Assembly: GCA_026395995.1 (NCBI GenBank)
Contig: JAPLXQ010000003.1
Location: 1 to 45,791 of the forward strand
Length of the DNA stretch: 45,791 bases
Source: Candidatus Nomurabacteria bacterium
GTDB lineage: Bacteria > Patescibacteriota > Minisyncoccia > Phycocordibacterales > UBA9973
Direction of reading: 5' to 3'
The translations under genes and the position numbers were made by a program. The notes under the pieces are model-generated. The model had not been told where the DNA came from. It saw only the letters and a program-made list of their open reading frames with translations, and made no database searches. Shown here one piece after another: positions 13,624 through 30,220 of this stretch (the first letter of the stretch is position 1; every line of letters starts with the position of its first letter).

Positions 13624-16383
13624 ATGATCTCAATACGTCAGATATACAAACAAATAATTGGTTCTATAATAATCGGAAGTATTATTTTAATGCCTTTCAG
13701 TGGACAATTACAAAAAAATTATGCTGAAGCTAATTCAGCAGGTATTGCAGGATATGTAAAAGGCCTTGCTCCTCTTATTGTCAGTCTTCCTGGTTGTAAG
13801 GAAATTCTAAAATCTGGAATGCAAGACATGTTTTCTAAAATAAAAGGAGCTTTCAAAAAAACAAAGAGTAGTTCTGGTTCTGGACATGATGCAGACCCAA
13901 ATGGTACCGGCATAGACGACACAGGGACAACAACTCAAGCAAAAGCAGAATCAGTGCCTGTTTTTGATGTTACTGTTTATAACAACACAAAAAGTACAGC
14001 CAGCTCAACTTCAGAAATAGAAGCTTCTACTGGTTCGATGAATAAAAATCAGGGTTGTTTAAATTCAATAGGAAAGGCTGTCGCGAAAATGCTTCTAACT
14101 GAAATGACAAAAAGTATGGTGGAATGGATAAACGGAGGTTTTGATGGTACACCAAAATTTGTTCATGATATTCCTGGATTTTTTCAAGATGTCGCGAAAA
14201 ATGAAATTTTACAATTTGGATTAGAAATAAATAATCCTTTACTTTTCCCGTTTGGAAAAGATTTCATAAAAATGCAAAAAAGGAGATTTGTAAAACAATT
14301 TGCAGACAATGCAAAATATTCTCTTAATGAGGTGATAGCAAATGGTAACCCTGGACACACTGCAGCTGATTTCAAGGTTAGCTTTGCTGATGGTGGTTGG
14401 GGAGCATGGAATGCAATGACACAACTTCCACAAAACAACCCTATTGGGTTTAATGTTGCAGCATCAAATGAAATGCAAATCAGACTTGATGGTACAGCAA
14501 AATCAACTGCTCAAAATATTCGTGATGGTATCGCCACAGCAAATGGCTATTTGAATCAGGAACGTTGTGCTTCACCATCTCACGATATTACTAGAGGGGA
14601 AGATGCAAAAGCATTGAGAGGTGTAGATGGTGCTAGACGTTGTACTGTATGGGAGACAGTCACCCCTGGTCACCTTATTTCAGAATCTGCTACAAAGACC
14701 TTACAATTTAGATCAGATTCACTTTTATCTGTAACTGACTTAAACGATGCAGCTGCAGCCTTGATAGATGCATCACTTAGTCTACTTGTGACAAAAGTCG
14801 CTGGTGATGATGGTTATGCAGGATTATCAGACGATCCAAACAGTGATATGGCCTTTAATACAGACACTTCTTTGACTTCCAATGGAAACGTCGAAAAAGA
14901 TTTTCCAGGTGATATGGGTGATAGTGATTGGTTGAATGCCAACCAAGACTTTAATATTCGCACAGATCTTACCCAAGCACTCATAGATGAACAAAGAATC
15001 TTTATGCAAAAACTGCAAGATCAAAATGTGGAACTAAAATCTGTTAAAAAAATTGGTAATCAAAAATGGAATTATGGTTTGCTTCCAATTATTTATCAGT
15101 TAGATTATTGTATCCCTGGACCACACCCAGGATATGAAGAAGAAGCTCAGACAAACCTAGACGCGGCTGAAGCCAAAATCGTTGATATTGGTGGAATGAA
15201 TTTCGCTCAAATAAACAAAGCTACAGGTACTGGAAGTTCAGCAGACTGGGACACCATGTTTCTTGCGTTTAACACTTTCGTCGTAGGAACAGGGGGTATA
15301 GCTAATTATGAAACGATTGACAAAACTCTTCATTTAACTGATAAATATGCTTATCAGTATTTATCAGATTTCCCAAATAAATATTTAGGGATCCAATTTA
15401 AAAAAGATGGTGCATCAGAATCATATAGTAATACTATAGAAGCGCTGGACCAAGCATTTAGTGGTTATCAAGCGATGATCAATAATGTATATAATACGTT
15501 AACATTACCAGGTGTTGCTGACCAGGCTAAAAGAGAATTTAACACAGCTAGTGGCTACCAATCAATGTTTGATAAAAATGTTGCAGATATTGCTCTAAAA
15601 AAAGCTGACATCAAAAGATTGTCAGATATAAAAGATAAAATAGATACTTTGACTATTCAAAAAGATAACCATACTCTTCCATTAACCATGATAGATCCAG
15701 CTACAAACCTAATTACTACAGATTATAATGCTCAATTCGAAGAAGATTTAAAACCTTATATTGGTTCATTCTCTAGAATTTCTCTCAACATGAAAACAGG
15801 GGATGAAATAGCTAAGGCTGATAGCCTACTACAACAAATAAAAGATAAAGAAAAATATATTTATAATGATTTATTAAAAGGTGCAACTGGTTGTGAAAAA
15901 GAACTTTCAACACCACCAGCTTTTAAATTATGGCAGCTTAAAAGATATAACTATCCTTTACCTAATATTTATAACTATGACGGTGTAGGCTCTACTATTC
16001 CGGACCCGTTTGGAAATGGTATATTTCATTCAGGGCAAATAGCCAACACTTCAGTATATCAATATGAATCTGGACAAGGTGCTCCAGGGCTATGGTGGGT
16101 TAATTTTTCAAGTTCTGTTATTCTCCCACACTTTGACGGGCAAGAATACAGTTCTTCTGGATCAGGAAATGGAAATATGTATCAAGACTGGCATACAATA
16201 GGGTCACTATGTCAAAGCATCGCAGAAAGAATGCTATTAACAACCGTGGGTGTTCCTTATGGGAATTGTAGAGTAGCAGCTAGTAATTTTACAAATATGT
16301 ATATTCAAGCATTAAATTTTGAAAGCGATGATCAAGGACCATACAACATAACCACATTTGAAAAAACATTAGGGATTTATTAA
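13624..16383 (+). CDS. 919-residue exported protein of secretion cluster, unknown
   Basis: No family recognised. The N-terminus has a membrane/signal segment (about 8-27, IIGSIIIGSIILMPFSG) followed by a short conserved-looking helix (GYVKGLAPLIVSLPGCKEIL). A Gly/Ser/Asp/Thr-rich linker spans about 78-135. The large central region includes LLTEMTKSMVEWINGGFDG..FVHDIPGFFQDVAK, which resembles an amphipathic or pore-like segment. A helical, coiled-coil-prone stretch lies at about 655-690 (DIALKKADIKRLSDIKDKID). Several cysteines are spread along it. AGGTG-like bases at 13611-13615 are one of the few Shine-Dalgarno-like leads in the window. Its place just before the adhesin gene suggests an exported component of the apparatus. 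Confidence 0.8.
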   Translation: MISIRQIYKQIIGSIIIGSIILMPFSGQLQKNYAEANSAGIAGYVKGLAPLIVSLPGCKEILKSGMQDMFSKIKGAFKKTKSSSGSGHDADPNGTGIDDTGTTTQAKAESVPVFDVTVYNNTKSTASSTSEIEASTGSMNKNQGCLNSIGKAVAKMLLTEMTKSMVEWINGGFDGTPKFVHDIPGFFQDVAKNEILQFGLEINNPLLFPFGKDFIKMQKRRFVKQFADNAKYSLNEVIANGNPGHTAADFKVSFADGGWGAWNAMTQLPQNNPIGFNVAASNEMQIRLDGTAKSTAQNIRDGIATANGYLNQERCASPSHDITRGEDAKALRGVDGARRCTVWETVTPGHLISESATKTLQFRSDSLLSVTDLNDAAAALIDASLSLLVTKVAGDDGYAGLSDDPNSDMAFNTDTSLTSNGNVEKDFPGDMGDSDWLNANQDFNIRTDLTQALIDEQRIFMQKLQDQNVELKSVKKIGNQKWNYGLLPIIYQLDYCIPGPHPGYEEEAQTNLDAAEAKIVDIGGMNFAQINKATGTGSSADWDTMFLAFNTFVVGTGGIANYETIDKTLHLTDKYAYQYLSDFPNKYLGIQFKKDGASESYSNTIEALDQAFSGYQAMINNVYNTLTLPGVADQAKREFNTASGYQSMFDKNVADIALKKADIKRLSDIKDKIDTLTIQKDNHTLPLTMIDPATNLITTDYNAQFEEDLKPYIGSFSRISLNMKTGDEIAKADSLLQQIKDKEKYIYNDLLKGATGCEKELSTPPAFKLWQLKRYNYPLPNIYNYDGVGSTIPDPFGNGIFHSGQIANTSVYQYESGQGAPGLWWVNFSSSVILPHFDGQEYSSSGSGNGNMYQDWHTIGSLCQSIAERMLLTTVGVPYGNCRVAASNFTNMYIQALNFESDDQGPYNITTFEKTLGIY

Positions 16384-16385
16384 AA

Positions 16386-19300
16386 ATGAAAAAAAATATC
16401 TACAAAAATATAATAAAATTTCTTATTCTAGTTGTTTTTATAACACCAGTTTTTTCTAAATTTGCACATGCCACAAACCCACTAATAGTAACAACAGGAT
16501 CAGCAAGTCTTATTGGAGTATTTAGTGCAACATTGACTGGTACAGTTTTTAATCCTAATCCTGTTACAAACTATAATTCATGGTTTGAATATAGCCCAAA
16601 TCAAACATCTTTAAACAATGGTGGTGGTCAGTCTACATCACCATCTTATGGTACTCTTCAGCCTTACACATCTGCCACGTCCAGCATTGTAATTAATTTT
16701 ACAAATCTTTATTCTTCAAATCCAGTTACTTATTATTTTAGAATTTGTGAGACTGATATATCGGGAATTGTCTGTGGTTCCTCTAATAGTTTTACAACAC
16801 TTGCAAACACAACACCACCAGTCAACCAGACTAGTTCTACTGGTGTAATAGGTGCTGGTGTTGGTGGTGCAGCAAACAATACTTTTAGTACAGAAATTAC
16901 AAATGTCTTAACTTATAACGCAATAAATTTACACGACACTTCAGCAAAATTAACTGGTTCAGGAACTATATTAAATAGCCAAAATCATTATGCCTATTTT
17001 AGATATTCTAAAATTACTGACAATCCACCTATTTTTTGTAACGACATTTATGGATCAGCAATGAGATCAATAGCATCAACAAGCCCAAACACAAACGGTT
17101 CCTTTATTGGTAGTGGTAATTTTAGTGCTACAGTTCAAGGGCTTGAACCAGACACCAGTTATGCTTATTGTGCAGTAATTTCAAACAGTGCTACAAACCT
17201 AAATATGAATCAGCAATATTTATTACCTCCGACAGATATTCAATATGGAGGTGTAAAATATTTTACTACAAAATGTGGTACTACTTGTACGACAATTCTT
17301 ACAAAATCAGTTTCTGATGTTACACCGACTACGGCTTATTTAAATGGTCAGTTTAATTCTACAAAAACAGTAACGACATCATTTGAATACACCGTTGACC
17401 CAGCGACTCTTCCTCCTGTAAATGGACATCCGGCTACAGCCAATTGGCAAACAGTAAATATTGAAAACCACATTGTTCCACAACAAAATGGTTCCACTTC
17501 AGCCTCTGGTGGTCTAAAAAAACAATTAACAGGTTTAACTCCAAACACTTCTTATTTATTTAGAGCAGTAGCACAAACAGATTGGGGAGTACCTGGTTCA
17601 CCGGCAATTCAATCTTATTCTGGTGAAACACTTAGCTTTGTCACTCGTCCACCAGCATCGACACCTGAAGTACCGACAGACCCAGGAATCGGAACAGGAA
17701 ATCTTCCAGATATAATTCCCGGAGACTGGACCGACGGAGCAGGTGGTCCATGTTCATCATTAACCCTAAACAATATCTCAAATAGAACTGTTCGAGTGGG
17801 AAATAATCTTTCTTTATCAACACACTATTGTGGGGCTCAAGGAGAAGTAGTTACTTACGGAATAATTGACCAACCTGGTGGTTCATATTTTAACCCAGCA
17901 AATAGTTCTTTTACATGGAGACCGACTTTTACTCAAATTGGCCCACATATTGTAAAAATAAATGCTACGACCCCATCAGGAAATGACGCCGAAGAAATAT
18001 CATTTACTATCAATGTAATAGCTTCTAATACAAATTGTAACACTTTAACTATTGAACCAATTCCAGATCAAAATTATGATGTAGGTCAAACTGGTAATTT
18101 AAATGTTAATGTTTGTGGAAATAATGGGGAAGTTGTCACCTATGGAGCAGATGGTTTACCTGCAGGTGCTGGTATTAATCATGACAATGGATATTTTTCC
18201 TGGTTTCCTACAGAAGACCAAATAGGTCCACATGACATTATCTTTACAGCCAGTACCCCTAGTCAAAATGCAGTATCTGTTACAGTGCACTTTATTATTT
18301 CTGCATCAAATAATGCTCCATTAAATCCAAATGATCCAAACAATATTCACGGGAACTCTGTCTCTTGTCCAAATTTCAAAATAAACCCTATTTCAAATAA
18401 AAATGTTCAAGTTGGATCTCCTATTTCTTTTACTGTTCATACCTGTGGAAATCAAGGACAACCAGTGACTTATTCTATTACTTCTACATTAATGCCATCA
18501 AACGCAAGTATTGATCATGAAACTGGTATTTTTTCTTGGCATACAGGTCCGAATCAATCTGGTACTTATGAAATAACTGTTCATGCCGGTACTCCTATTG
18601 GTGCGATAGATTTAACTACAGGAAACCATGCGATAGTTAATGCGACACCAGTAACAGTACAGATAAAAGTAAATGCTTTACCTGTCGATTGTCCAACTCT
18701 AAAAATAAATCCTATATCAAACATTACTGCTTTTGTCGGCCAACCAGAAACTTTTTATGCGACAGTTTGTGGAGACCATGGCCAAACAGTCACTTATGGA
18801 GCAGATAGCTTACCAACAAATGCTGGCATTAATCCAGAAACTGGTTTTTTCTCTTGGACTCCAACAATTAACCAACTTGGTATAAACAATATAACCATTA
18901 TGGCAAATACAACAAGCCAAAGAACTGTTACTGATATTGTTCACATTAATGTGAAAAACATAAACAACAATCCTTTTAGTGGAAATGTGAATGGCAACAA
19001 TCCTTTTAGTAATGGAACAAGTAATGGTAGCAATCCTTTTGGAAATGGAACTTTTGGTAGTGGTATAGATAGTAATGGCAATAGTTCAAACGGAAGTGGT
19101 GGTAATAGTCCGACAGTTCTAGGATCTCTAAATAATCCTGCTCCGGCCTTGGGTTCAGCATTAGTTCCTCCATATAGTGACGTCGTAAGATATCACGAAG
19201 GAATAGAGCATGTCTTTACTAGACAAATAGTAGGGGATATATCTCTCGCAAGAATTTATGGATATCAAGATGGACAAAATTTACAAATTTTTGCCGGAAA

Positions 19301-19511
19301 CCTAGCTCACTCATTTGCTACAATGTTTGGATATTATCATGGTGGGGGAAGAGAAATACGAGTCATTACTCCAGACATCGCAGCCTATCAGCTCGGACTC
19401 AAAGATGGAATGCTAGCTGTTTATGAATATTATGATAATCACTTGACCGGTGTCGCTACTGCTACAGGAAGCTTGAAAGAAACTTTTGAATACGAATATT
19501 ATTTTCATTAA
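16386..19511 (+). CDS. Large Ig-like repeat surface protein (adhesin-like)
   Basis: 1041 residues with a signal peptide (about 8-29, IIKFLILVVFITPVFSKFAHA). Residues about 30-420 contain fibronectin-type-like beta domains (patterns such as LTGLTPNTSYLFRAVAQTD). Then come four repeats of about 95-110 residues starting near 454, 551, 660 and 768, each with C-x-x-L..I.PI.......VG........CG..G..VTYG and F.W.PT..Q.G, the layout of cadherin-like/He_PIG putative Ig domains with a conserved Cys pair. A low-complexity run built on NNPFSG/NGSNPFGNG follows (about 858-905). The C-terminal domain (VVRYHEGIEHVFTRQIVGD..) is separate. Likely surface-displayed and possibly an adhesin or sheath; no partner can be named. 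Confidence 0.85.
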   Translation: MKKNIYKNIIKFLILVVFITPVFSKFAHATNPLIVTTGSASLIGVFSATLTGTVFNPNPVTNYNSWFEYSPNQTSLNNGGGQSTSPSYGTLQPYTSATSSIVINFTNLYSSNPVTYYFRICETDISGIVCGSSNSFTTLANTTPPVNQTSSTGVIGAGVGGAANNTFSTEITNVLTYNAINLHDTSAKLTGSGTILNSQNHYAYFRYSKITDNPPIFCNDIYGSAMRSIASTSPNTNGSFIGSGNFSATVQGLEPDTSYAYCAVISNSATNLNMNQQYLLPPTDIQYGGVKYFTTKCGTTCTTILTKSVSDVTPTTAYLNGQFNSTKTVTTSFEYTVDPATLPPVNGHPATANWQTVNIENHIVPQQNGSTSASGGLKKQLTGLTPNTSYLFRAVAQTDWGVPGSPAIQSYSGETLSFVTRPPASTPEVPTDPGIGTGNLPDIIPGDWTDGAGGPCSSLTLNNISNRTVRVGNNLSLSTHYCGAQGEVVTYGIIDQPGGSYFNPANSSFTWRPTFTQIGPHIVKINATTPSGNDAEEISFTINVIASNTNCNTLTIEPIPDQNYDVGQTGNLNVNVCGNNGEVVTYGADGLPAGAGINHDNGYFSWFPTEDQIGPHDIIFTASTPSQNAVSVTVHFIISASNNAPLNPNDPNNIHGNSVSCPNFKINPISNKNVQVGSPISFTVHTCGNQGQPVTYSITSTLMPSNASIDHETGIFSWHTGPNQSGTYEITVHAGTPIGAIDLTTGNHAIVNATPVTVQIKVNALPVDCPTLKINPISNITAFVGQPETFYATVCGDHGQTVTYGADSLPTNAGINPETGFFSWTPTINQLGINNITIMANTTSQRTVTDIVHINVKNINNNPFSGNVNGNNPFSNGTSNGSNPFGNGTFGSGIDSNGNSSNGSGGNSPTVLGSLNNPAPALGSALVPPYSDVVRYHEGIEHVFTRQIVGDISLARIYGYQDGQNLQIFAGNLAHSFATMFGYYHGGGREIRVITPDIAAYQLGLKDGMLAVYEYYDNHLTGVATATGSLKETFEYEYYFH
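18961..19055 (+). repeat. Short tandem coding repeat (NPF/NG repeats)
   Basis: Three degenerate copies of a unit based on AACAATCCTTTTAGTGGAAA within the adhesin-like gene, giving the low-complexity NNPFSG..NNPFSNG..SNPFGNG linker. Such tracts can change length by slippage. Confidence 0.7.
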
Positions 19512-19696: not shown

Positions 19697-21829
19697 ATGA
19701 AAAAACTTTTTCCAAAAATAATAATATCAGTAGTAATGATAGCTATTTTCTTGGCACCTATTGTACCAAGTTTCCAAACTAAAAATAAAATAGTTTCAGT
19801 TAAAATAGAGCATAAGGTGGCCTTAGCTTCAGACTGTAACCCAGACACAGAACATGAAGATTCAAGCGGAAATTGTGTCCCAAATGAAGGAGATAGCGAG
19901 ATAGATAAAAGTGCTGGATTTGAATGTAATCTTTGGCCATCTACTTGGTTTCGTGGTTGTATTGTTGGTCTTATTTATTACATGGTCTTTAAGCCTATAT
20001 CTTATCTTGCTACGCTAGCAGCCGGTGTTTTAGATTTCTTTATTTATTACTCGACAAACAGTAGCTCTTACTCAGCAGGCTTTGTCAGCACAGGATGGGC
20101 GACAGTGCGAGATATTGCTAATATTTTTTTTATTGTGGCCCTTTTGTATGTAGCAATTCAAACCATTTTAGGACTAGGTTCACAAGGTAAGAAAATGATT
20201 TCGACGATTATCATCGTCGCTCTTTTAATAAATTTTTCTTTATTTTTTACTCAAGTAGTCATCGATGGTTCCAATATTCTAGCCAAAGTATTTTATAATC
20301 AAATAAAACCTGTAGGTGCCAATGGTCAACCTGTAAATGCTAGTGATCAAAAATCAATAACTGTTGGCTTGGTAAGCTCTTTTAATCCACAAGACTTAAT
20401 GACACAGTCTCAAGATGATCCAGGTAGGCAATTTGTCATTTTAATATTGCTCATAATTATGTCTGTAGTGATGATCTATATTTTTATTTCCATTGCACTA
20501 CTCTTTGTCGCCCGAGTCGCTGGACTTTGGGTTGCAATGATCTTTTCACCAATTGCTTTTGCGTCTTTGACATTGCCATTCAAAATTCCTGGTGTAGGCT
20601 GGGATGAATGGAAAAATGATTTACTAAAACAAGCCTTTTTAGCCCCAGTCGTTGTCTTTTTCTTTTATATTATTCTTTTATTTGGTCAAAATTTACACTT
20701 AATAAACGAAGATGCTATACATGCCACAGATAATATCAGTGCTTTAATGAAAGTAATAATTCCTTTCTTTATTATGATGATGCTTCTTGTTCAAGCAAAA
20801 AAACTCGCAGTCGACTGGTCTGGAAAGATTGGAGCTGCTATCAATGAAGCTGGAGGTAAGGTCGTAGGTTTTGCTACAGGAGCTGTCACGGGTGGAGCTG
20901 CTATGATGTTACAAAAAACAGTCGGAGCAAGAGCCACACGTACTGCTAATGATGATGAATTAAAAGCAAAAGCCGCCGGAGGAGATAAAGATGCTCAAAA
21001 GAGATTGGAGATTGCAAACAGAAGAGCAAATAGAAGCTACGACTTTAGACAAACAGGTGTCGGTGGTTTTGCTGCTAAACAAGCTGGCTTGGATGTAAAT
21101 AGTGGTACAAGTGCATTAGGATTAGACACAAAGAGTACTAAGGGTGGATATAAAGCAAAAGAAAAGAAGGCAATTGAAAAAGAGGAAAAGAGATTCAAAA
21201 CATATGAACTTAGTGGGGAAGCAGCAGCAATACAAAATAAAAAAGCAGAGGACGCAAAAGATGATAATCTTCGATTAAAAGAATATCAAGAAGATTTGAA
21301 AACAGCAAAAGGAGAGCATGAAAAACTTGGTCTAGGAACTGAATTTGAGGAAGAAGAATTTAAAAAAGCATACGTTAAAGGTGGAGACTTAAGTATTCAC
21401 GGAGTAGATAAAAAAGTTAAAGGTGGATCAATTGCAGAAGAAATGGTTCCAGACGCTAATGATATCAATTCTGCAAGAAGAAAGGCTTATACTTTGAGTA
21501 TGATTAATGGTGATGAATTAGATAAAACCAAAAGTGCTATGGGTGTCTTCTTTAAAGAATGGCAAAATGGTATGAAGAAAATGGTAACTACTGCTAATGG
21601 TGGAGCAGCTACAGCGGCATTAGGAATTGGTTCATTGGGAGTATTGGTTGCTCCTACTATTGTTGGTGGTGGTTTATTGCTTGGTCTAAAACGTATTTTT
21701 GAAGATAAATACACTGGTGGAATAAAAAGATCTGATGCTGAGCTTGTAAATGCACTTAGAAAATCTAAGGCGCCAGATGATACTGCTACAATATTGGCTG
21801 AAATTAAAAAACTAAAAAAAGAAGAATAA
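19697..21829 (+). CDS. VirB6/TrbL-like polytopic inner-membrane protein
   Basis: 710 residues. An N-terminal signal-like segment (about 5-23) precedes a short Cys-containing loop and then about six to seven transmembrane helices between about 90 and 375 (for example IANIFFIVALLYVAIQTILGLG, MISTIIIVALLINFSLFFT, FVILILLIIMSVVMIYIFISI, VVVFFFYIILLFG). The rest is a long charged cytoplasmic tail (about 380-650) with a Gly/Ala-rich hydrophobic stretch near 640. This layout fits the VirB6/TrbL channel component of type IV secretion systems. A TATAAT at 19653-19658 may start an internal transcript with a leader of about 30 nt. The call rests on topology and neighbours (PrgI, VirB4), not on a sharp motif. 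Confidence 0.75.
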   Translation: MKKLFPKIIISVVMIAIFLAPIVPSFQTKNKIVSVKIEHKVALASDCNPDTEHEDSSGNCVPNEGDSEIDKSAGFECNLWPSTWFRGCIVGLIYYMVFKPISYLATLAAGVLDFFIYYSTNSSSYSAGFVSTGWATVRDIANIFFIVALLYVAIQTILGLGSQGKKMISTIIIVALLINFSLFFTQVVIDGSNILAKVFYNQIKPVGANGQPVNASDQKSITVGLVSSFNPQDLMTQSQDDPGRQFVILILLIIMSVVMIYIFISIALLFVARVAGLWVAMIFSPIAFASLTLPFKIPGVGWDEWKNDLLKQAFLAPVVVFFFYIILLFGQNLHLINEDAIHATDNISALMKVIIPFFIMMMLLVQAKKLAVDWSGKIGAAINEAGGKVVGFATGAVTGGAAMMLQKTVGARATRTANDDELKAKAAGGDKDAQKRLEIANRRANRSYDFRQTGVGGFAAKQAGLDVNSGTSALGLDTKSTKGGYKAKEKKAIEKEEKRFKTYELSGEAAAIQNKKAEDAKDDNLRLKEYQEDLKTAKGEHEKLGLGTEFEEEEFKKAYVKGGDLSIHGVDKKVKGGSIAEEMVPDANDINSARRKAYTLSMINGDELDKTKSAMGVFFKEWQNGMKKMVTTANGGAATAALGIGSLGVLVAPTIVGGGLLLGLKRIFEDKYTGGIKRSDAELVNALRKSKAPDDTATILAEIKKLKKEE

Positions 21830-22835: not shown

Positions 22836-23261
22836 ATGCAATTCAAAGTTCCACAATTTTTAGATATTGAAGACAAAATATTTGGACCATTCACTTTCCG
22901 ACAATTTGCATACTTAATCGGTGGAGGTGGTCTTTGTTTTGTTATTTATAGAACGACACCTTTATGGGTTGGCGCCTTACCAATACTAATAGTTGGAGGA
23001 TTTTCATTAGCTTTAACTTTTTACAAAGTAAACAATAAACCTTTTATTTTTGTACTAGAAGCTGCTTTTAGTTATTTATTTCGTGATAAATTATATATTT
23101 GGAAAAGAAGAATGAAAAAGCCAGGAGAGAAGGAAGCAGAGGCTGAGATAAAAAAAGAAGAGCAAGTTCAAACTGAAATGAAAAGAGTAAATAAGCTAGG
23201 AACAAGTCGTTTAAAAGATCTAGCCTGGAGCTTAGATGTTTTAGATATTAAAAAACAATAA
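22836..23261 (+). CDS. PrgI-family protein (VirB3-like, type IV secretion)
   Basis: 141 residues. The opening FKVPQFLDIEDKIFGPFTFRQF followed by two close transmembrane helices (about 24-41 and 44-62) is the hallmark of the PrgI family, the Gram-positive and CPR counterpart of VirB3, which normally partners VirB4. A charged tail with lysine/glutamate repeats follows. The TraC-N-like and VirB4 genes follow within 8 and 28 nt, as in other type IV systems. Confidence 0.85.
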   Translation: MQFKVPQFLDIEDKIFGPFTFRQFAYLIGGGGLCFVIYRTTPLWVGALPILIVGGFSLALTFYKVNNKPFIFVLEAAFSYLFRDKLYIWKRRMKKPGEKEAEAEIKKEEQVQTEMKRVNKLGTSRLKDLAWSLDVLDIKKQ

Positions 23262-23268
23262 TAAATAT

Positions 23269-23925
23269 ATGGCATTAAAAGCAAAAGCAACTCAAGAGTT
23301 TGTCCCAATCAAAGAAGTCCGCGATGGAATCGTGGTTCTAAAAGACGGTGGACTCCGAGCTTTGGTTTTAGCCAATTCTACAAACCTATCTTTAAAATCA
23401 GCCGAAGAACAAAAGGCGACGATTATGCAGTTCCAATCTTTTTTAAATACGATTGATTTTCCTATACAAATAGTTGTTCAGTCTAGAAGATTAGACATCC
23501 GACCATATCTATTATTACTTGAGAATAGAATTAAGGTTCAAACTGAACCATTACTTAAAATACAAACAAAAGAATATATGGAATTCATTAGAAATTTTAC
23601 TGAAACGACAAATATTATGACCAAAAATTTCTTTGTAGTTGTTCCATATACACCAAACCAGCTAAATCCAAGAGGTGGATTTTTTAGTAATTTATTTTCT
23701 AAAAAAAGTACAGCGGAAGAAAAAGAAGAAAGAACTGCCGATTTTGAAGAAAAAAGATCTCAGCTTGATCAACGAATAGGAATTATCGAGCAAGGTCTTG
23801 CAAGATGTGGTATTAAATCAGTCGAACTCGGTACTGAAGAAGTAGTAGAAGTATATTATAAAGTTTTTAATCCAGGAGAAGTAGAAGGTAAAATTGATTT
23901 AGGGCAAGGAGAGCCTGGAAAATAA
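23269..23925 (+). CDS. TraC-like N-terminal-domain protein, no ATPase
   Basis: 218 residues. Its N-terminal half (FVPIKEVRDGIVVLKDGGLR..LVLANSTNLSLKS..QSFLNTIDFPIQIVVQSR) resembles the amino-terminal domain of TraC/VirB4-type proteins. There is no Walker A, so it cannot be an ATPase alone. The next gene carries its own VirB4 N-terminal domain, which means this is not simply the severed head of a broken VirB4. It probably acts as a structural companion of VirB4 at the membrane with PrgI. It starts 8 nt after the PrgI-like stop codon. Confidence 0.75.
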   Translation: MALKAKATQEFVPIKEVRDGIVVLKDGGLRALVLANSTNLSLKSAEEQKATIMQFQSFLNTIDFPIQIVVQSRRLDIRPYLLLLENRIKVQTEPLLKIQTKEYMEFIRNFTETTNIMTKNFFVVVPYTPNQLNPRGGFFSNLFSKKSTAEEKEERTADFEEKRSQLDQRIGIIEQGLARCGIKSVELGTEEVVEVYYKVFNPGEVEGKIDLGQGEPGK

Positions 23926-23952: not shown

Positions 23953-25797
23953 ATGTCAATATTTGATTCACTATTTGGTAAAAATAAAGGGACACAAAAT
24001 GCTACCAGAGCATCTGTTTTAGCTGTGCTACCTGAAGAAATTTATGAGTCAGCTACAATGGAGCTTCAAGACATTATTGCACCATCTGCTTTAAAAGTAG
24101 AACCTAAATCTTTAAACCTTGGTGACAAAATAGCTCGTACTTTCTTTGTTATTTCTTATCCGAGATTTCTTACAGACAACTGGTTCTCACCAATTATCAA
24201 TTTAGACAAAATTTTTGATGTATCAATTTTTATTCACCCGATAGATACTTCTTTGGCCTTAAGAGAATTTCAAAAAAAAGTAGCTGAAGTTCAAAGTCAA
24301 ATCAATGAAAGAGAGGCGAAGGGGATGGTACGTGACCCAATGCTTGATACTGCAAATCAAGATCTAGAAAGTTTACGTGATAACTTAATGCAAGCCCAAG
24401 AAAAAATGTTTGATGTTGGTCTTTATATTACAATCTATGCTGACAATGAATTGGAACTTTTCAAAATTGAAAGTGAAATAAAATCTATCTTAGAATCAAA
24501 ATTAATTTATCTAAAACCAGCATTATTCCAACAAGACGAAGGTTTTAAAAGTGTTATTCCGATGGGTAATGACCTATTGAATGTTCACCAAAAATTGAAT
24601 TCTGAACCATTATCGAGTATCTTTCCATTCGTTTCTTTTGACCTTACTTCTGATAAGGGTATTTTGTATGGTTTAAATAGACACAACTCTAGTATGGTTA
24701 TTTTTGATAGATTTTCCTTAGAGAACTACAACTCTGTAACCTTTGCTAAATCTGGTTCAGGAAAATCTTATTGTACAAAATTAGAAATTATTAGATCCCT
24801 CATGTTTGAGACAGATGTCATTGTTATCGACCCTGAAAGGGAATATGAGTATTTAGCTGAAGCTGTAGGTGGAAGATATTTTAATATTTCTCTTTCTTCT
24901 GATCACCATATCAACCCTTTTGATCTGCCTATTCCTCGTGAAGATGAAACAGCTGAAGATGTCTTGAGATCAAACATTATAAACCTTGTTGGATTATTTA
25001 GATTAATGCTAGGAGGTTTGACCCCAGAAGAAGACTCACTTGTCGATCGTGCTATTTCTGAAACCTATGCAATCAAAGACATCACACCGGAATCTGATTT
25101 TTCTAATATTGAGCCACCACTACTTTCTGATTTTGAAATGGTTCTTTCTGGAATGGAAAACAGTGAATCTGTCATTCAAAGACTTGTAAAATACACTCGT
25201 GGCTCTTGGTCTACATTTCTAAACAAACCAAGTAACGTCGACATTAATAAAAAGTTTATTGTTTTCTCTGTGCGTGATATGGAGGATGAGTTGAAACCTA
25301 TTGCGATGTATATCGTCACCCACTATATCTGGAATGCTGTTCGTAAAAATTTAAAAAAGAGATTGCTCGTCGTGGATGAGGCTTGGTGGATGATGAAATC
25401 TGAAGACACAGCCTCTTTCTTATACAGTATTGCAAAACGTGGCAGAAAATATTTCCTTGGACTTGCGACAATTACTCAGGATGCTGCAGACTTTATGAAA
25501 TCACCATACGGTGTACCTATTGTGACAAACTCTTCGATTCAAATACTCCTAAAACAATCTCCTTCAACTATTGATATTCTACAAAAAACCTTCAATTTAA
25601 CAGATGAGGAAAAATATCTTTTACTTGAATCTGGAGTAGGGGAAGGTATCTTCTTTGCTGGTACAAAACACGTAGCTATCAAGGTTATTTCTTCTTATAC
25701 TGAAGACCAAATAATTACTTCAGACCCTTCTCAAATCCTTTCAATAAAGAAAGCCAAGCAAGACCTCGAAGAAGCTGAAGCAGTGGAAAAGAAATAG
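23953..25797 (+). CDS. virB4: VirB4-family type IV secretion ATPase
   Basis: 614 residues. The N-terminal CagE/TrbE/VirB4 domain (about 20-240, with KIARTFFVISYPRFLTDNW) precedes the RecA-like motor. Walker A is TFAKSGSGKSYCTKLE (about 265-280), Walker B LLVVDEAWWMM (about 470-482), and the arginine-rich/Q motif region is SIAKRGRKYFLGLATITQD (about 493-511). It powers substrate or pilin movement in type IV secretion or conjugation. A TATAAT at 23928-23933 may drive an internal transcript, with 19 nt to the ATG. It ends with TAG. Confidence 0.93.
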   Translation: MSIFDSLFGKNKGTQNATRASVLAVLPEEIYESATMELQDIIAPSALKVEPKSLNLGDKIARTFFVISYPRFLTDNWFSPIINLDKIFDVSIFIHPIDTSLALREFQKKVAEVQSQINEREAKGMVRDPMLDTANQDLESLRDNLMQAQEKMFDVGLYITIYADNELELFKIESEIKSILESKLIYLKPALFQQDEGFKSVIPMGNDLLNVHQKLNSEPLSSIFPFVSFDLTSDKGILYGLNRHNSSMVIFDRFSLENYNSVTFAKSGSGKSYCTKLEIIRSLMFETDVIVIDPEREYEYLAEAVGGRYFNISLSSDHHINPFDLPIPREDETAEDVLRSNIINLVGLFRLMLGGLTPEEDSLVDRAISETYAIKDITPESDFSNIEPPLLSDFEMVLSGMENSESVIQRLVKYTRGSWSTFLNKPSNVDINKKFIVFSVRDMEDELKPIAMYIVTHYIWNAVRKNLKKRLLVVDEAWWMMKSEDTASFLYSIAKRGRKYFLGLATITQDAADFMKSPYGVPIVTNSSIQILLKQSPSTIDILQKTFNLTDEEKYLLLESGVGEGIFFAGTKHVAIKVISSYTEDQIITSDPSQILSIKKAKQDLEEAEAVEKK

Positions 25798-25820: not shown

Positions 25821-26792
25821 ATGAGAAATAAAGTTTTAATCTTAATCTTTTTTATGCTATTTGCATTTATTGCTCATGCAGATGTACATGAAAGTGATGT
25901 TATCTTAAGCACTTCACCTAAATACCCAAATCCAAACCAAAATGTCACTGCTACAATAAGTACTAATGCTACTGATTTAAACAAAGCCAATATTCATTGG
26001 TCTATAAATGGAAAAGAGTTTATAGTCGGTGTCGGTAAAAAGAATTTTTCTTTTGATATGGGTGGTGTCGGAGAATCTTTAACTATTCAAGCACGTATCG
26101 ACACCATTGATGGGCAAAGTATCGTTAAAAATATTTTAACCACTCCGGCCGAAGTAGATATGCTATGGGAAGGGGATGATAGTTATTCTCCACCATTCTA
26201 CAAAGGAAAAACACTAGTTCCAGAAGAAGGAACTTTTAAAGTTGTCGCTATGCCAAACTTAACAACAAAATATGGACACATGAATCCTGAAAATTTATCT
26301 TACAGTTGGATTTTAGACTCAAAAAGTCAACCTAGTGATTCTGGTTGGGGTAAAAATTACCTTATTTTAAAAAATAGTTATTTAGATGACAATAATATTG
26401 TAGAAGTAACAGCTTCTGATATCTCTGGGTCCACCAACGCAGGTGGTAAAATAACCCTAAATACAGTAAACCCAGAAATATATTTTTATAAAAATGATCC
26501 GAAGTTTGGAATACTATATAACAATATTGTTGGTAATGGTTTTAATTTAGATACAGGTGGTGCTACTTTTATAGCTGAACCATATTTCTTTTCTCCTAAA
26601 AACATTGATTCTCCAAATCTTAATTTTAATTGGATAATAAATGGATCACAAACTTCTACCCCCACACCCAAAAATGTTCTTTCTATCAAACCAAACCCAA
26701 ATGAATCAGGCACAGCTAAAATAAGACTCACTATTACTAACATAAAAACACTTTCTCAAACATTAACCAAGGAATTTAATGTTAATTTTTAA
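25821..26792 (+). CDS. Exported Ig-like protein of secretion cluster
   Basis: 323 residues with a clear signal peptide (about 1-20, VLILIFFMLFAFIAHA cut before DVHESD). The mature part is beta-rich, with PKD/Ig-like patterns repeated three times (for example TISTNATDLNKANIHWSING, LSYSWILDSKSQ, LNFNWIINGSQT). No cysteines are apparent after the signal. It lies 4 nt before the pilin-peptidase gene, so the products are probably partners on the cell surface. No specific family is recognised. Confidence 0.78.
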   Translation: MRNKVLILIFFMLFAFIAHADVHESDVILSTSPKYPNPNQNVTATISTNATDLNKANIHWSINGKEFIVGVGKKNFSFDMGGVGESLTIQARIDTIDGQSIVKNILTTPAEVDMLWEGDDSYSPPFYKGKTLVPEEGTFKVVAMPNLTTKYGHMNPENLSYSWILDSKSQPSDSGWGKNYLILKNSYLDDNNIVEVTASDISGSTNAGGKITLNTVNPEIYFYKNDPKFGILYNNIVGNGFNLDTGGATFIAEPYFFSPKNIDSPNLNFNWIINGSQTSTPTPKNVLSIKPNPNESGTAKIRLTITNIKTLSQTLTKEFNVNF

Positions 26793-26795
26793 AAA

Positions 26796-28211
26796 ATGAA
26801 AAAACTTATTTCAAAAATTTTAATAGTCTTAGTAATAATCTCAGTTTTTTCTTCTTCTATTTTAATAAAACCTAAAATTTCTTTAGCGACAGGGGTTTGC
26901 TCTATCCAATCAGCAAGGTTTGATCCTTCTGGTACAAAATCAGGTTCTTGGTATACAGATGCTACTCATCCTGATGTGACTGTTGATATAGTCACCGCAA
27001 ACTGCGAAGGACAGACAATTGAAGTCAGTATTACTGAAAAGGACTTTCCAAGTGGCGATGATGATATTTCACAATTAAACAACCATCCAATCACAGTACC
27101 TACAAGTAACCATATGATAATTCACATGAAAGCAGGGGAAAATTATTGTGAAGTAGAGAGTAATCCAGATTGTTATTACTATCTTTCAGTTTTTCTACCT
27201 GGATCTATTATGAATGATTATAATTCAGATAATAAATATCATGGAAATTTAAAATTTAATTGTGATACTGCTTGTCTAGATAATTGGCAGTTTGTTTCCG
27301 AAGAATTGGTAGCTGGGCCAGCAAATACACTAGGTACATCTGATCCAAAAATTGATTATTATCCTTTGGCCCCATTACCAGAAGTAGGAGTAGAATGTGC
27401 CACCAATCCAGATTCAAATGATCCAAACAATAAAAACTGTGTTCACACTCAACCCACAGATTCAAACCCTTGTCCTTTTGGTGATTATTTAAATGCTTTA
27501 ATAAAAGTATTTATTGGGCTTTGTGCTGTGTTGGCAATGATAATGATAGTTATTGGTGGTATTGAATATATGACCAGTGAGCTTATCTCTAGTAAAGAAG
27601 AAGGGAAGAAGCGTATTACCGGCGCCCTCTTTGGTCTAATTATTGCCTTATCATCTTATGCATTACTCAATACAATCAACCCCGCAGTACTACAAATTTG
27701 TTTAAATAAATTACCGGAAGCCAAAGTGACAATGACACCAGAAACAGACGAAACAACTTTTGGACACCCTACAAGCACATTATCTATTGGTGCCCAAACC
27801 CTTACAGCTTGTAATACAAGTCAATTACAAACAATAACTTTTATGGGCAAAAGTGTACAAGTAAATACTGCTGTTATTCCGAGTTTACAAGCAATAAATA
27901 CACAATGGCAAAATAGTTCCGACCAAGCAATACGAAATTATGTAATAAACGATATTGGATCATATAATTGTCGAAGTGTTAGGGGGCAACCAACATATCC
28001 GTCTGCTCATTCTTTTGGAATAGCTTTAGATATAAATCATGTAACAAACCCATTTAATGCTCATGTTTGTACAACAAATATGCCACCATCTTTTGTTAGT
28101 CTTTTTACAAGCAATGGTTGGGGCTGGGGAGGAAATTGGTTAACACCCAAAGACCCTATGCACTTTAGTAAATTAGCAGGAGAAACAGGTCATAACACAC
28201 CCTGTCCTTAA
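26796..28211 (+). CDS. VirB2/TrbC-like pilin domain fused to M15 (VanY-type) peptidase
   Basis: 471 residues in three parts. Part one: signal peptide (about 7-30) and a Cys-rich exported domain (about 31-220). Part two: two hydrophobic helices (about 229-256, IKVFIGLCAVLAMIMIVIGG, and about 272-296, GALFGLIIALSSYALLN) joined by a short charged loop (SSKEEGKKR), the layout of VirB2/TrbC pilins. Part three: a C-terminal M15 D-Ala-D-Ala carboxypeptidase-like domain (about 335-471) with SAHSFGIALDIN (zinc ligands His and Asp, about 404-411), GWGWGGNW and DPMHFS (about 452-457). Catalytic residues look intact. A wall-cutting enzyme joined to a pilin-like membrane hairpin would place muralytic activity at the secretion channel; that is inference. 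Confidence 0.85.
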   Translation: MKKLISKILIVLVIISVFSSSILIKPKISLATGVCSIQSARFDPSGTKSGSWYTDATHPDVTVDIVTANCEGQTIEVSITEKDFPSGDDDISQLNNHPITVPTSNHMIIHMKAGENYCEVESNPDCYYYLSVFLPGSIMNDYNSDNKYHGNLKFNCDTACLDNWQFVSEELVAGPANTLGTSDPKIDYYPLAPLPEVGVECATNPDSNDPNNKNCVHTQPTDSNPCPFGDYLNALIKVFIGLCAVLAMIMIVIGGIEYMTSELISSKEEGKKRITGALFGLIIALSSYALLNTINPAVLQICLNKLPEAKVTMTPETDETTFGHPTSTLSIGAQTLTACNTSQLQTITFMGKSVQVNTAVIPSLQAINTQWQNSSDQAIRNYVINDIGSYNCRSVRGQPTYPSAHSFGIALDINHVTNPFNAHVCTTNMPPSFVSLFTSNGWGWGGNWLTPKDPMHFSKLAGETGHNTPCP

Positions 28212-28221
28212 AATAAATATT

Positions 28222-29661
28222 ATGCAAAAAAGAAATGTTGTACTTTTAATAATCACTTTAGTAGCAATAACTGCTGGTTTTTTTCTGTATCTATATTTTT
28301 TCCCTCAGGCAAAACCTGTAGTAAATAATCCAGATGTCACTTCACAAAACTTTTTTCCATTTGGAAATACTCCAAAGAAAAATACACCTACAGGCCCAGC
28401 CAATATATCGGGACTGGGGATATTAAATCCTTTGACAGGTGATGGTGGATCAACAAATACTCTACCTATCAAAAAAATCTCAAGCTTTCCCATAGCTGGA
28501 TTCGGAATTTACAACAAAGAAGTGTTTTCTAATATTCCAGCAGTGGTAAATACAACCACACCCCAAACCCTCCCCTTATCAGGTGAGGGAGTAAATACTA
28601 CTACGACTAACACTACCACTCAACCCCCTGACAAGGGGGCGAAGGGGGTTGTATTAAAAACAACAAAACCAATCAAGCCAACTCCACCACCAACAGAATT
28701 GATTACAATGGTTCGATATATAAACAAAGAAAATGGAAATATTTACCAAACACCAGCTGATACTATCACTGAAACAAAATACACAAATACAATAATTCCA
28801 AAAATTTACGAAGGTTTATTTGTAAGCAATACAAAGACTGTTGTAATGCGATATTTAAATATCGACAATAAAACAATTGAAAGTTATTTAGGGATTTTAC
28901 CGGTTGAAGTTTTAGGAGGGGATGGAACTGGAACAAATGAAATAAAAGGTTCTTTCTTGCCACAAAACATTATCGATATGAGTATCTCACCAGACAATAG
29001 TAATATTTTTTATCTATTCAAGAATGCCTCAAACAATGATTCTAGTATTATCGGTACTACCGCTGGTGCACAAGGAGATAAAAAGACTCAGATCTTTAGC
29101 TCAGCTTTTACTGGTTGGCTTTCACAATGGCCTAATGCAAAAATAATTACATTGACTACAAAACCAGCTGCTGATTATCCTGGATATATGTATTCTATTG
29201 ATCCAAACAAAAAAGATTTTAATAAAATCTTAGGTGGCATAAACGGACTCACTACATTGACCAGTCCATCTGGAGCAGATGTCCTTTATAACAATTCTAC
29301 AAATGGTGGTTTGGATTTAAATATCTATCATATCAATAGTGGCAACTCGGACAAATTATCTATTAAAACATTACCTGAAAAATGTGTTTGGACAAAAGCC
29401 AATGATGCTATTTATTGTGCTGTTCCTAGATTTTTAGATAATGCTAAATACCCTGATGCTTGGTACAAAGGATTGATTTCTTTTGGAGATGAAATCTGGA
29501 AAATAGATGTGACAAATTTAAATGCTAAAAAAATATCTGATCCATTACAGGTAGCAGGAGAGGAAGTAGATGGAATAAAACTTACACTCGATGACAATGA
29601 AAAATACTTGTTCTTTATGAACAAAAAAGATAATTACCTTTGGGAATTAAAGACAATCTAA
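28222..29661 (+). CDS. Anchored protein with propeller-like domain
   Basis: 479 residues. One N-terminal transmembrane helix (about 5-25, NVVLLIITLVAITAGFFLYLYF) is followed by a Pro/Thr-rich exported linker (about 30-170). The C-terminal region has beta-propeller-style repeats with turns such as SISPDNSNIFYLF and LDDNEKYLFFMN, reminiscent of TolB/WD40-like PD40 repeats. Two palindromic elements at 28558-28655 encode part of the linker (PQTLPLSGEGV and QPPDKGAKGVV). It is the last gene of the secretion cluster and meets jag tail to tail with 4 nt between stop codons. Function unknown. Confidence 0.78.
   Translation: MQKRNVVLLIITLVAITAGFFLYLYFFPQAKPVVNNPDVTSQNFFPFGNTPKKNTPTGPANISGLGILNPLTGDGGSTNTLPIKKISSFPIAGFGIYNKEVFSNIPAVVNTTTPQTLPLSGEGVNTTTTNTTTQPPDKGAKGVVLKTTKPIKPTPPPTELITMVRYINKENGNIYQTPADTITETKYTNTIIPKIYEGLFVSNTKTVVMRYLNIDNKTIESYLGILPVEVLGGDGTGTNEIKGSFLPQNIIDMSISPDNSNIFYLFKNASNNDSSIIGTTAGAQGDKKTQIFSSAFTGWLSQWPNAKIITLTTKPAADYPGYMYSIDPNKKDFNKILGGINGLTTLTSPSGADVLYNNSTNGGLDLNIYHINSGNSDKLSIKTLPEKCVWTKANDAIYCAVPRFLDNAKYPDAWYKGLISFGDEIWKIDVTNLNAKKISDPLQVAGEEVDGIKLTLDDNEKYLFFMNKKDNYLWELKTI
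28558..28655. repeat. Two CTCCCC-type palindromic elements inside gene 28222-29661
   Basis: Copy one (28558-28592) has ACCCTCCCCTTATCAGGTGAGGGAG. Copy two (28621-28655) has CCCCCTGACAAGGGGG plus CGAAGGGGGTTGTATT. They are separated by a Thr-coding run. Both are read in frame, and the outer parts could pair across the pair. Confidence 0.75.
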
Positions 29662-29665
29662 TTAT

Positions 29666-30220
29666 TTATATATTACCTATGTATTTAATTACGACTCTGC
29701 GAGTAGGTCCATAGCCAGTTGACTCTGATTTTAAATCACTAGAATTGGAAACATATTCATGTACAATACGACGATCAAAAGCAGACATTGGATCGACTTC
29801 TACACTTGATTGAAAATATCTAGCTCGTTCAGCTATCATATGTGCAACAGCCCGGACATTTTCAACTCTTTTTTTATGAAAACCATCTATATCTATCAAG
29901 ATACCTTCCACTGTTTTCTCCCCCTGCGAAGGGGGAGTGCCTGAAGGGCGAGGGGGTGTGACCTCTCCGTCCTCTGGACACCTCTCCTTATCAGGAGAGG
30001 AAGAATTCTCCACAATTCTCCTAATCAAATGATTGAGTGAATGTAAAGCTTCACCTTCACGACTAGTGAAAAAATGAGGCTGATCTACAGAGACAGAGTA
30101 CCATGTTGTTTGAGAATTATTTTCTTTTAAGACATCAATATTTAGAACAGAAATATTCATATTTTGAATTATTTCTTTTATTAAATTTTGTATTTCTGTA
30201 TTATTCATAATATTTTTCAT
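29666..30220 (-). CDS. jag: Jag/KhpB RNA-binding protein (KH + R3H)
   Basis: 184 residues. Jag/KhpB is an RNA-binding protein with KH and R3H domains that influences cell division and wall synthesis and is nearly always next to yidC. The N-terminal half (about 10-85) fits the KH domain. The C-terminal R3H domain carries MSAFDRRIVHEY..TRRVVIKYIG. Between them, where most homologs have a short loop before the strand GILIDIDGFHKKR, there are about 26 extra residues rich in Pro, Gly and Ser encoded by two palindromic elements at 29916-30001. Starts at 30220 or at the methionine five codons in are both possible. Confidence 0.9.
   Translation of the reverse strand: MKNIMNNTEIQNLIKEIIQNMNISVLNIDVLKENNSQTTWYSVSVDQPHFFTSREGEALHSLNHLIRRIVENSSSPDKERCPEDGEVTPPRPSGTPPSQGEKTVEGILIDIDGFHKKRVENVRAVAHMIAERARYFQSSVEVDPMSAFDRRIVHEYVSNSSDLKSESTGYGPTRRVVIKYIGNI
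29916..30001. repeat. Two palindromic elements inside jag
   Basis: 29918-29960 carries CTCCCCCTGCGAAGGGGGAG plus an 18-nt arm ending GGGGGTGTG. 29981-30000 carries the perfect palindrome CCTCTCCTTATCAGGAGAGG. Translated from the minus strand they give SSPDKERCPEDGEV and TPPRPSGTPPSQGEK. The longer element is the same type as that in tsaE, but inserted in the other orientation relative to the gene. Confidence 0.8.

Follow-up and report, generated by a model that had tools for sequence, protein, structure and literature searches.

A VirB2-like membrane hairpin joined to exchangeable, putative wall-cutting heads at a T4SS locus of Patescibacteria

In a Candidatus Nomurabacteria genome of 0.76 Mb, one gene encodes a 471-aa protein in which a transmembrane hairpin of a T4SS pilin family is fused to an M15 peptidase. 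The gene (26796-28211, plus strand) is a single open frame of 471 codons without interruption and lies in the window, by which we mean the whole 45,791-nucleotide stretch of contig JAPLXQ010000003.1 that was analysed. The protein is probably a VirB2-like T4SS subunit whose own C-terminal wall-cutting domain does the job of VirB1, in a family whose C-terminal domains (heads) are exchanged by recombination.

Results

The earlier note on this DNA had placed a pilin-like hairpin and a cell-wall peptidase in one protein, and HMM searches of the whole protein bore this out: PF18895 and PF13539 both match within the one ORF, assigning the hairpin to a pilin family and the C-terminus to the M15 peptidases. 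The protein starts with a putative signal peptide (about aa 1-32, 26796-26891; hydrophobic at aa 4-22, helical at 2-21, with a presumed cleavage site) and continues as a Cys-containing, extracytoplasmic N-terminal region (26892-27467), which is highly variable in length among relatives and has a low-confidence fold, AlphaFold giving no confident model for it. The T4SS_pilin-type transmembrane hairpin (aa 225-305, 27468-27710) and the M15 peptidase head (aa 340-458, 27813-28169) follow, all on the plus strand.

The head matches PF13539 (Peptidase_M15_4) over aa 397-458 with an E value of 2.2e-14 and 54.2 bits against a cut-off of 25. The zinc/catalytic residues H405, D412, D453 and H456 are identical in all seven aligned M15_4 heads, which include one from beyond the order, in agreement with the intact zinc motifs noticed previously. 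The description as "VanY-type M15" was right as to the M15 peptidase and wrong as to the family, which is M15_4 and not VanY (PF02557). AlphaFold modelled the head mostly with confidence (340-412 and 431-458), and among solved structures the closest relative is Ply500, a phage L-alanyl-D-glutamate peptidase (2vo9, E 5e-4). A Foldseek search with the whole-protein model gave no significant match, the top one being again Ply500 (E 0.75). The head is similar in sequence to this phage endolysin and to the M15 domains of phage tape-measure proteins, but these lack the hairpin; coverage of at least 80% of the 471-aa protein was reached by none of the 14 phage matches and none of the 14 plasmid matches. 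With its intact active site the head is a putative wall-cutting enzyme, its activity being predicted from sequence.

The surrounding genes, all on the plus strand, form a T4SS locus. Upstream lie a VirB6-like polytopic membrane protein (19697-21829; NCBIfam MMCAP2_0566 conjugal transfer family, E 2.6e-4, below cut-off), a PrgI/VirB3-like protein (22836-23261; PF12666, E 1.3e-8, above cut-off), a TrsD/VirB4 N-terminal-like protein (23269-23925; NCBIfam TrsD, E 4.5e-5, below cut-off), the VirB4 ATPase (23953-25797; NCBIfam conju_CD1110, E 5.4e-114, 382 bits against 325; PF19044) and a secreted Ig/PKD-like protein (25821-26792; weak Ig/PKD matches), which is the immediate neighbour here and adjoins in most relatives. 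A conju_CD1110-type VirB4 with adjoining PrgI and TrsD, the latter below its cut-off, characterizes the locus as MPF-FATA type. Directly downstream, whatever the head type, is an N-anchored conserved protein of 479 aa (28222-29661), which has no Pfam match and is possibly an unnamed T4SS component. The start of the locus (13624-19511) encodes two large secreted proteins, one of 919 aa and then one of 1041 aa that has Ig repeats, and both are possible adhesins. Further downstream come genes that we take, by eye, to be yidC, rnpA, dnaA and dnaN. This order fits the published Patescibacteria T4SSs, which are often near dnaA (PMC12102498). The PrgI-TrsD-VirB4 locus, the proximity to dnaA and the VirB2-like pilins are likewise features held in common with the T4SSs described by Quinonero-Coronel et al. 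2025 (PMC12102498) and with that of Southlakia epibionticum.

Comparison with a close relative (L202, CALQZZ010000025.1) revealed an exchange of the head alone. The two DNAs are 86.9% identical over 25890-27747 and 95.1% identical over 28216-29921 (blastn), with 96-98% identity over two aligned stretches on to dnaA, and blastn gave no alignment between 27747 and 28216. Between these breakpoints, the 468-bp segment carrying the M15 head (27748-28215, plus strand) is replaced in the relative by 693 bp encoding an unrelated lysozyme/SLT-like head (SLT 11.9 bits, below cut-off). A single fixed M15 fusion is ruled out by such exchange, M15 being one of many head types.

For 56 loci placed on a VirB4 tree, 13 head states called for 38 changes against a mean of 40.8 after shuffling (16 of 200 shuffles were as low), and loci with VirB4 at least 85% identical shared a head class in 8% of 945 pairs, compared with an expected 9.2%. 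In Mantel tests against VirB4 identity over the 56 loci, the correlation was 0.68 for the hairpin, 0.80 for the 479-aa gene, 0.82 for PrgI and 0.84 for TrsD (0 of 300 permutations as high in each case), but shared head class showed none (rho -0.05). Since hairpin, PrgI, TrsD and the downstream gene all follow VirB4, transfer of whole loci is ruled out as the source of the random heads; only the head departs from the descent of the locus. We propose that recombination where the hairpin ends would exchange the head, while the hairpin, like the other parts of the locus, would descend vertically.

Exchange at such a pace suggests a head tuned to something in which close relatives differ, plausibly the host cell wall. 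The T4SS hairpin subunit may then be a universal tool holder, the heads being swapped with changes of host so that the wall of each host can be opened, a reading that we put forward tentatively and regard as possible. The random head pattern fits tuning to the host and also fits a neutral exchange, in which any wall-loosening enzyme opens the cell's own wall and the heads drift irrespective of host. This variant of the preferred explanation differs from it only in the target wall and in the cause of exchange, and the existence of headless loci also speaks for it. We nevertheless consider it rather unlikely, as the heads are repeatedly replaced at the same boundary by apparently intact enzymes, which suggests selection for change over drift or loss, and as the active site is conserved within the M15 heads.

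The hairpin itself scores above the gathering threshold of the T4SS_pilin family (PF18895, aa 232-293, E 3.7e-6, 27.4 bits against 26.6), although the hairpins of several relatives fall slightly under it. The match to TrbC/VirB2 (PF04956, aa 226-294) is sub-threshold at 16.7 bits against 27.9, so that the hairpin described earlier as "VirB2/TrbC-style" is upheld by the former family and not by the latter. AlphaFold gave a confident two-helix hairpin (helices 227-260 and 264-294, pLDDT mostly at least 90). The VIA list contained the Aeropyrum conjugation pilin 8dfu (Z 7.8, 72 residues, 2.9 A), level with unrelated helical hairpins. From the signal peptide and the loop between the helices, a topology is predicted in which both termini lie outside the membrane and the short loop faces inward, the charge of the loop being only weakly positive. 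A further transmembrane stretch is absent from 126 of 128 tails, and with both ends outside the head would thus act on the wall while held at the T4SS.

A two-helix hairpin and proximity to virB4 are common to the fused protein and the VirB2-like T4SS_pilin (PF18895) proteins of Patescibacteria, the latter occurring also in tandem arrays. In the same genome, five stand-alone pilin-hairpin genes lie in tandem at about 239.3-241.3 kb of C13 (L195:11312-13284), preceded by a gene for a 529-aa secreted protein. Their products are headless and have 109-138 aa, in contrast to the fused protein with its long domains on both sides of the hairpin. As the genome has these five stand-alone pilins, the fused protein need not be the pilus subunit, and it may sit at the base or tip or serve as an anchor instead of forming part of the shaft.

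The stand-alone pilins also speak for an alternative in which the hairpin is a mere membrane anchor for a VirB1-type hydrolase, its role as pilin or channel part having been lost, and all known Gram-positive VirB1 proteins are indeed membrane anchored (PMC12857230). The constraint on the hairpin, however, goes far beyond the needs of an anchor: in the close relative with the replaced head, 81 of 81 residues are identical (dN 0, dS 0.16). The hairpin furthermore tracks VirB4, exceeds the pilin-family cut-off and is retained at the locus even where headless, and we judge a pure anchor to be improbable.

To describe the heads, we searched 124 tails with Pfam, which matched SLT (9), NlpC/P60 (8), M15_4 (4), VanY (4), YkuD (2), SLT_2 (2) and M23 (1); the matched tails are thus almost all wall enzymes, and no nuclease or other cytosolic toxin was found by Pfam among the 124. 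Head classes beyond those named by Pfam were defined by our own profile clusters and by motifs read by eye. By these clusters 78 of the 124 tails are enzyme-like and 46 are without a recognised enzyme. The commonest class in the order (31 tails) has the motif TGGTExWxH...HxPGxxxVDL...HWH, with invariant H, D, H and H and four Cys, and looks, from its sequence, like an M15/LAS enzyme. No Pfam model matched this HWH head, its profile comparison with the VanY and M15_4 heads was not significant, and comparison with solved structures yielded no convincing enzyme, the fold searches listing mainly hairpin matches. Three members of the HWH cluster (L062, L076 and L054:1815-2636) have differing heads with DAxxxxYVxVPxxxxIPxGTPV...VGDxG, perhaps chitosanase-like by eye, a likeness that Pfam did not confirm. 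One hairpin protein (L045:2340-4385) has a long tail with the look of right-handed beta-helix repeats. Tandem hairpin genes with two heads also occur, combining SLT with NlpC/P60 (L118) or SLT with an HWH head (L101). In other classes of the phylum the heads include M15_4, Amidase_2, GH18, M23 and C39-like ones; examples from outside the order are a hairpin with a GH18 glycosidase (L297) and a hairpin with an N-acetylmuramoyl-L-alanine amidase (L304).

A constant carrier with a variable C-terminal hydrolase, exchanged fast between close relatives, is also what antibacterial effectors would look like, with the head killing or breaching neighbouring cells. In T6SSs, VgrG and Hcp are structural parts of the secretion machine, some of them with C-terminal effector domains, and the fused protein would be their T4SS counterpart or a polymorphic toxin; bacteria-killing T4SSs are reportedly known. 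A machine part bearing a wall-degrading domain is indeed common to both, but the T6SS is an unrelated machine, and the recognised heads here are nearly all wall- or polysaccharide-degrading. The lack of nucleases and other cytosolic toxins among the Pfam matches of the 124 tails likewise counts against effectors. Moreover, the upstream and downstream genes are constant whatever the head, so that no cognate immunity gene is visible. In polymorphic toxins the immunity gene changes with the toxin domain, whereas here PrgI, TrsD and the gene downstream follow VirB4; that no gene was seen to vary with the head speaks against toxin and immunity pairs, and we regard effectors as improbable.

The hairpin was found in 53 of 60 near relatives and, over the order, in 214 of 247 genomes and 135 of 149 genera. 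An in-frame C-terminal tail of at least 90 aa is present in 123 of 156 relatives and absent in about one fifth, so the fusion is conserved, a point that the earlier note had asked to be checked. VirB4 lies on the same strand at the locus in 88 of the 92 relatives with enough upstream DNA, and the 479-aa gene begins at most 300 bp downstream of the hairpin gene in 130 of 144. It is therefore the same gene at the same place across the order, between VirB4 and the 479-aa gene, yet with a differing tail. Over the phylum, the hairpin profile matched 357 of 381 genomes, many of these matches presumably being stand-alone pilins, and in other classes some hairpin-head genes had no VirB4 in the several kb examined.

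Given the pilin-family match, the conserved fusion and the lack of relatives with hairpin and head as separate genes, the suspicion that a sequencing error had joined two genes here fails. More than 100 relatives with the fusion in frame rule out such an error. Although every sequence is a metagenome assembly, the same boundary and in-frame fusion in more than 100 independent assemblies, with no internal stop codons, make the chance of an assembly or gene-calling artefact practically negligible.

Discussion

The likeliest explanation of these data is a VirB1-type wall-opening activity carried on a VirB2-like subunit, the heads coming from a common pool; incorporation into a pilus and the identity of the target wall are further suppositions. 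The constant pilin part with its differing wall enzymes is suggestive of a modular drill tip in a cell-to-cell machine. From the signal peptide and the hairpin, both ends of the protein would lie outside the membrane and the short loop inside, which would bring the M15 head to the wall, tethered to the VirB4/VirB6 machine if the protein is, as we suppose, located at the T4SS. There, the head would cut peptide bonds locally and open a passage for the channel or pilus.

VirB1 enzymes have been described as separate proteins, soluble in Gram-negatives and membrane anchored in Gram-positives (PMC12857230), in line with the earlier statement that pilin and wall enzyme are separate in known systems. 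Here, a wall-degrading domain is encoded with the T4SS, as the domain matches and the VirB4 locus indicate, but it is fused to the hairpin instead of forming a separate SLT protein, and the head in the window is M15 and not SLT. VirB1, PrgK and TraG-type hydrolases resemble the fused proteins in being T4SS-linked wall enzymes outside the membrane with domains of SLT, NlpC/CHAP or LytM type; they are separate proteins, whereas here the enzyme belongs to a VirB2-like hairpin protein and close relatives have exchanged one type of enzyme for another. Overall, the interpretation offered earlier was partly supported, namely in the pilin-family hairpin, the conserved fusion and the contrast with known systems; it did not foresee that heads are swapped and that M15 is one type among many.

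Not every T4SS locus of the phylum has the fusion: in Saccharibacteria (L334:7805-9631), the gene directly after VirB4 encodes a separate secreted protein of 608 aa, whose C-terminus is CHAP-like by eye and in which no hairpin was matched. This separate hydrolase-like gene contrasts with the fusion near the same place in the order of the window.

According to the 2025 survey, VirB2-like pilins lie near virB4 in 1,135 assemblies, most Patescibacteria genomes with VirB2 are without VirB1, and the pilus does not appear to need VirB1 (PMC12102498). In a search of open-access literature, the survey's passages on pilins, VirB1 and fusion and the first part of its T4SS section were found to mention no pilin-enzyme fusion. 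The fusions may be the missing wall enzyme of those Patescibacteria that have VirB2 but lack VirB1, which suggests that the enzyme escaped notice by being encoded within the pilin gene. In the one Patescibacterium tested so far, the T4SS proved essential (PMC12857230).

A swappable head permits head type to be compared directly with the wall type of the host. If the hairpin subunit is a tool holder for heads matched to hosts, the wall chemistry of the host could be read from the head type in the genome, and head type could help to predict the hosts of uncultured lineages.
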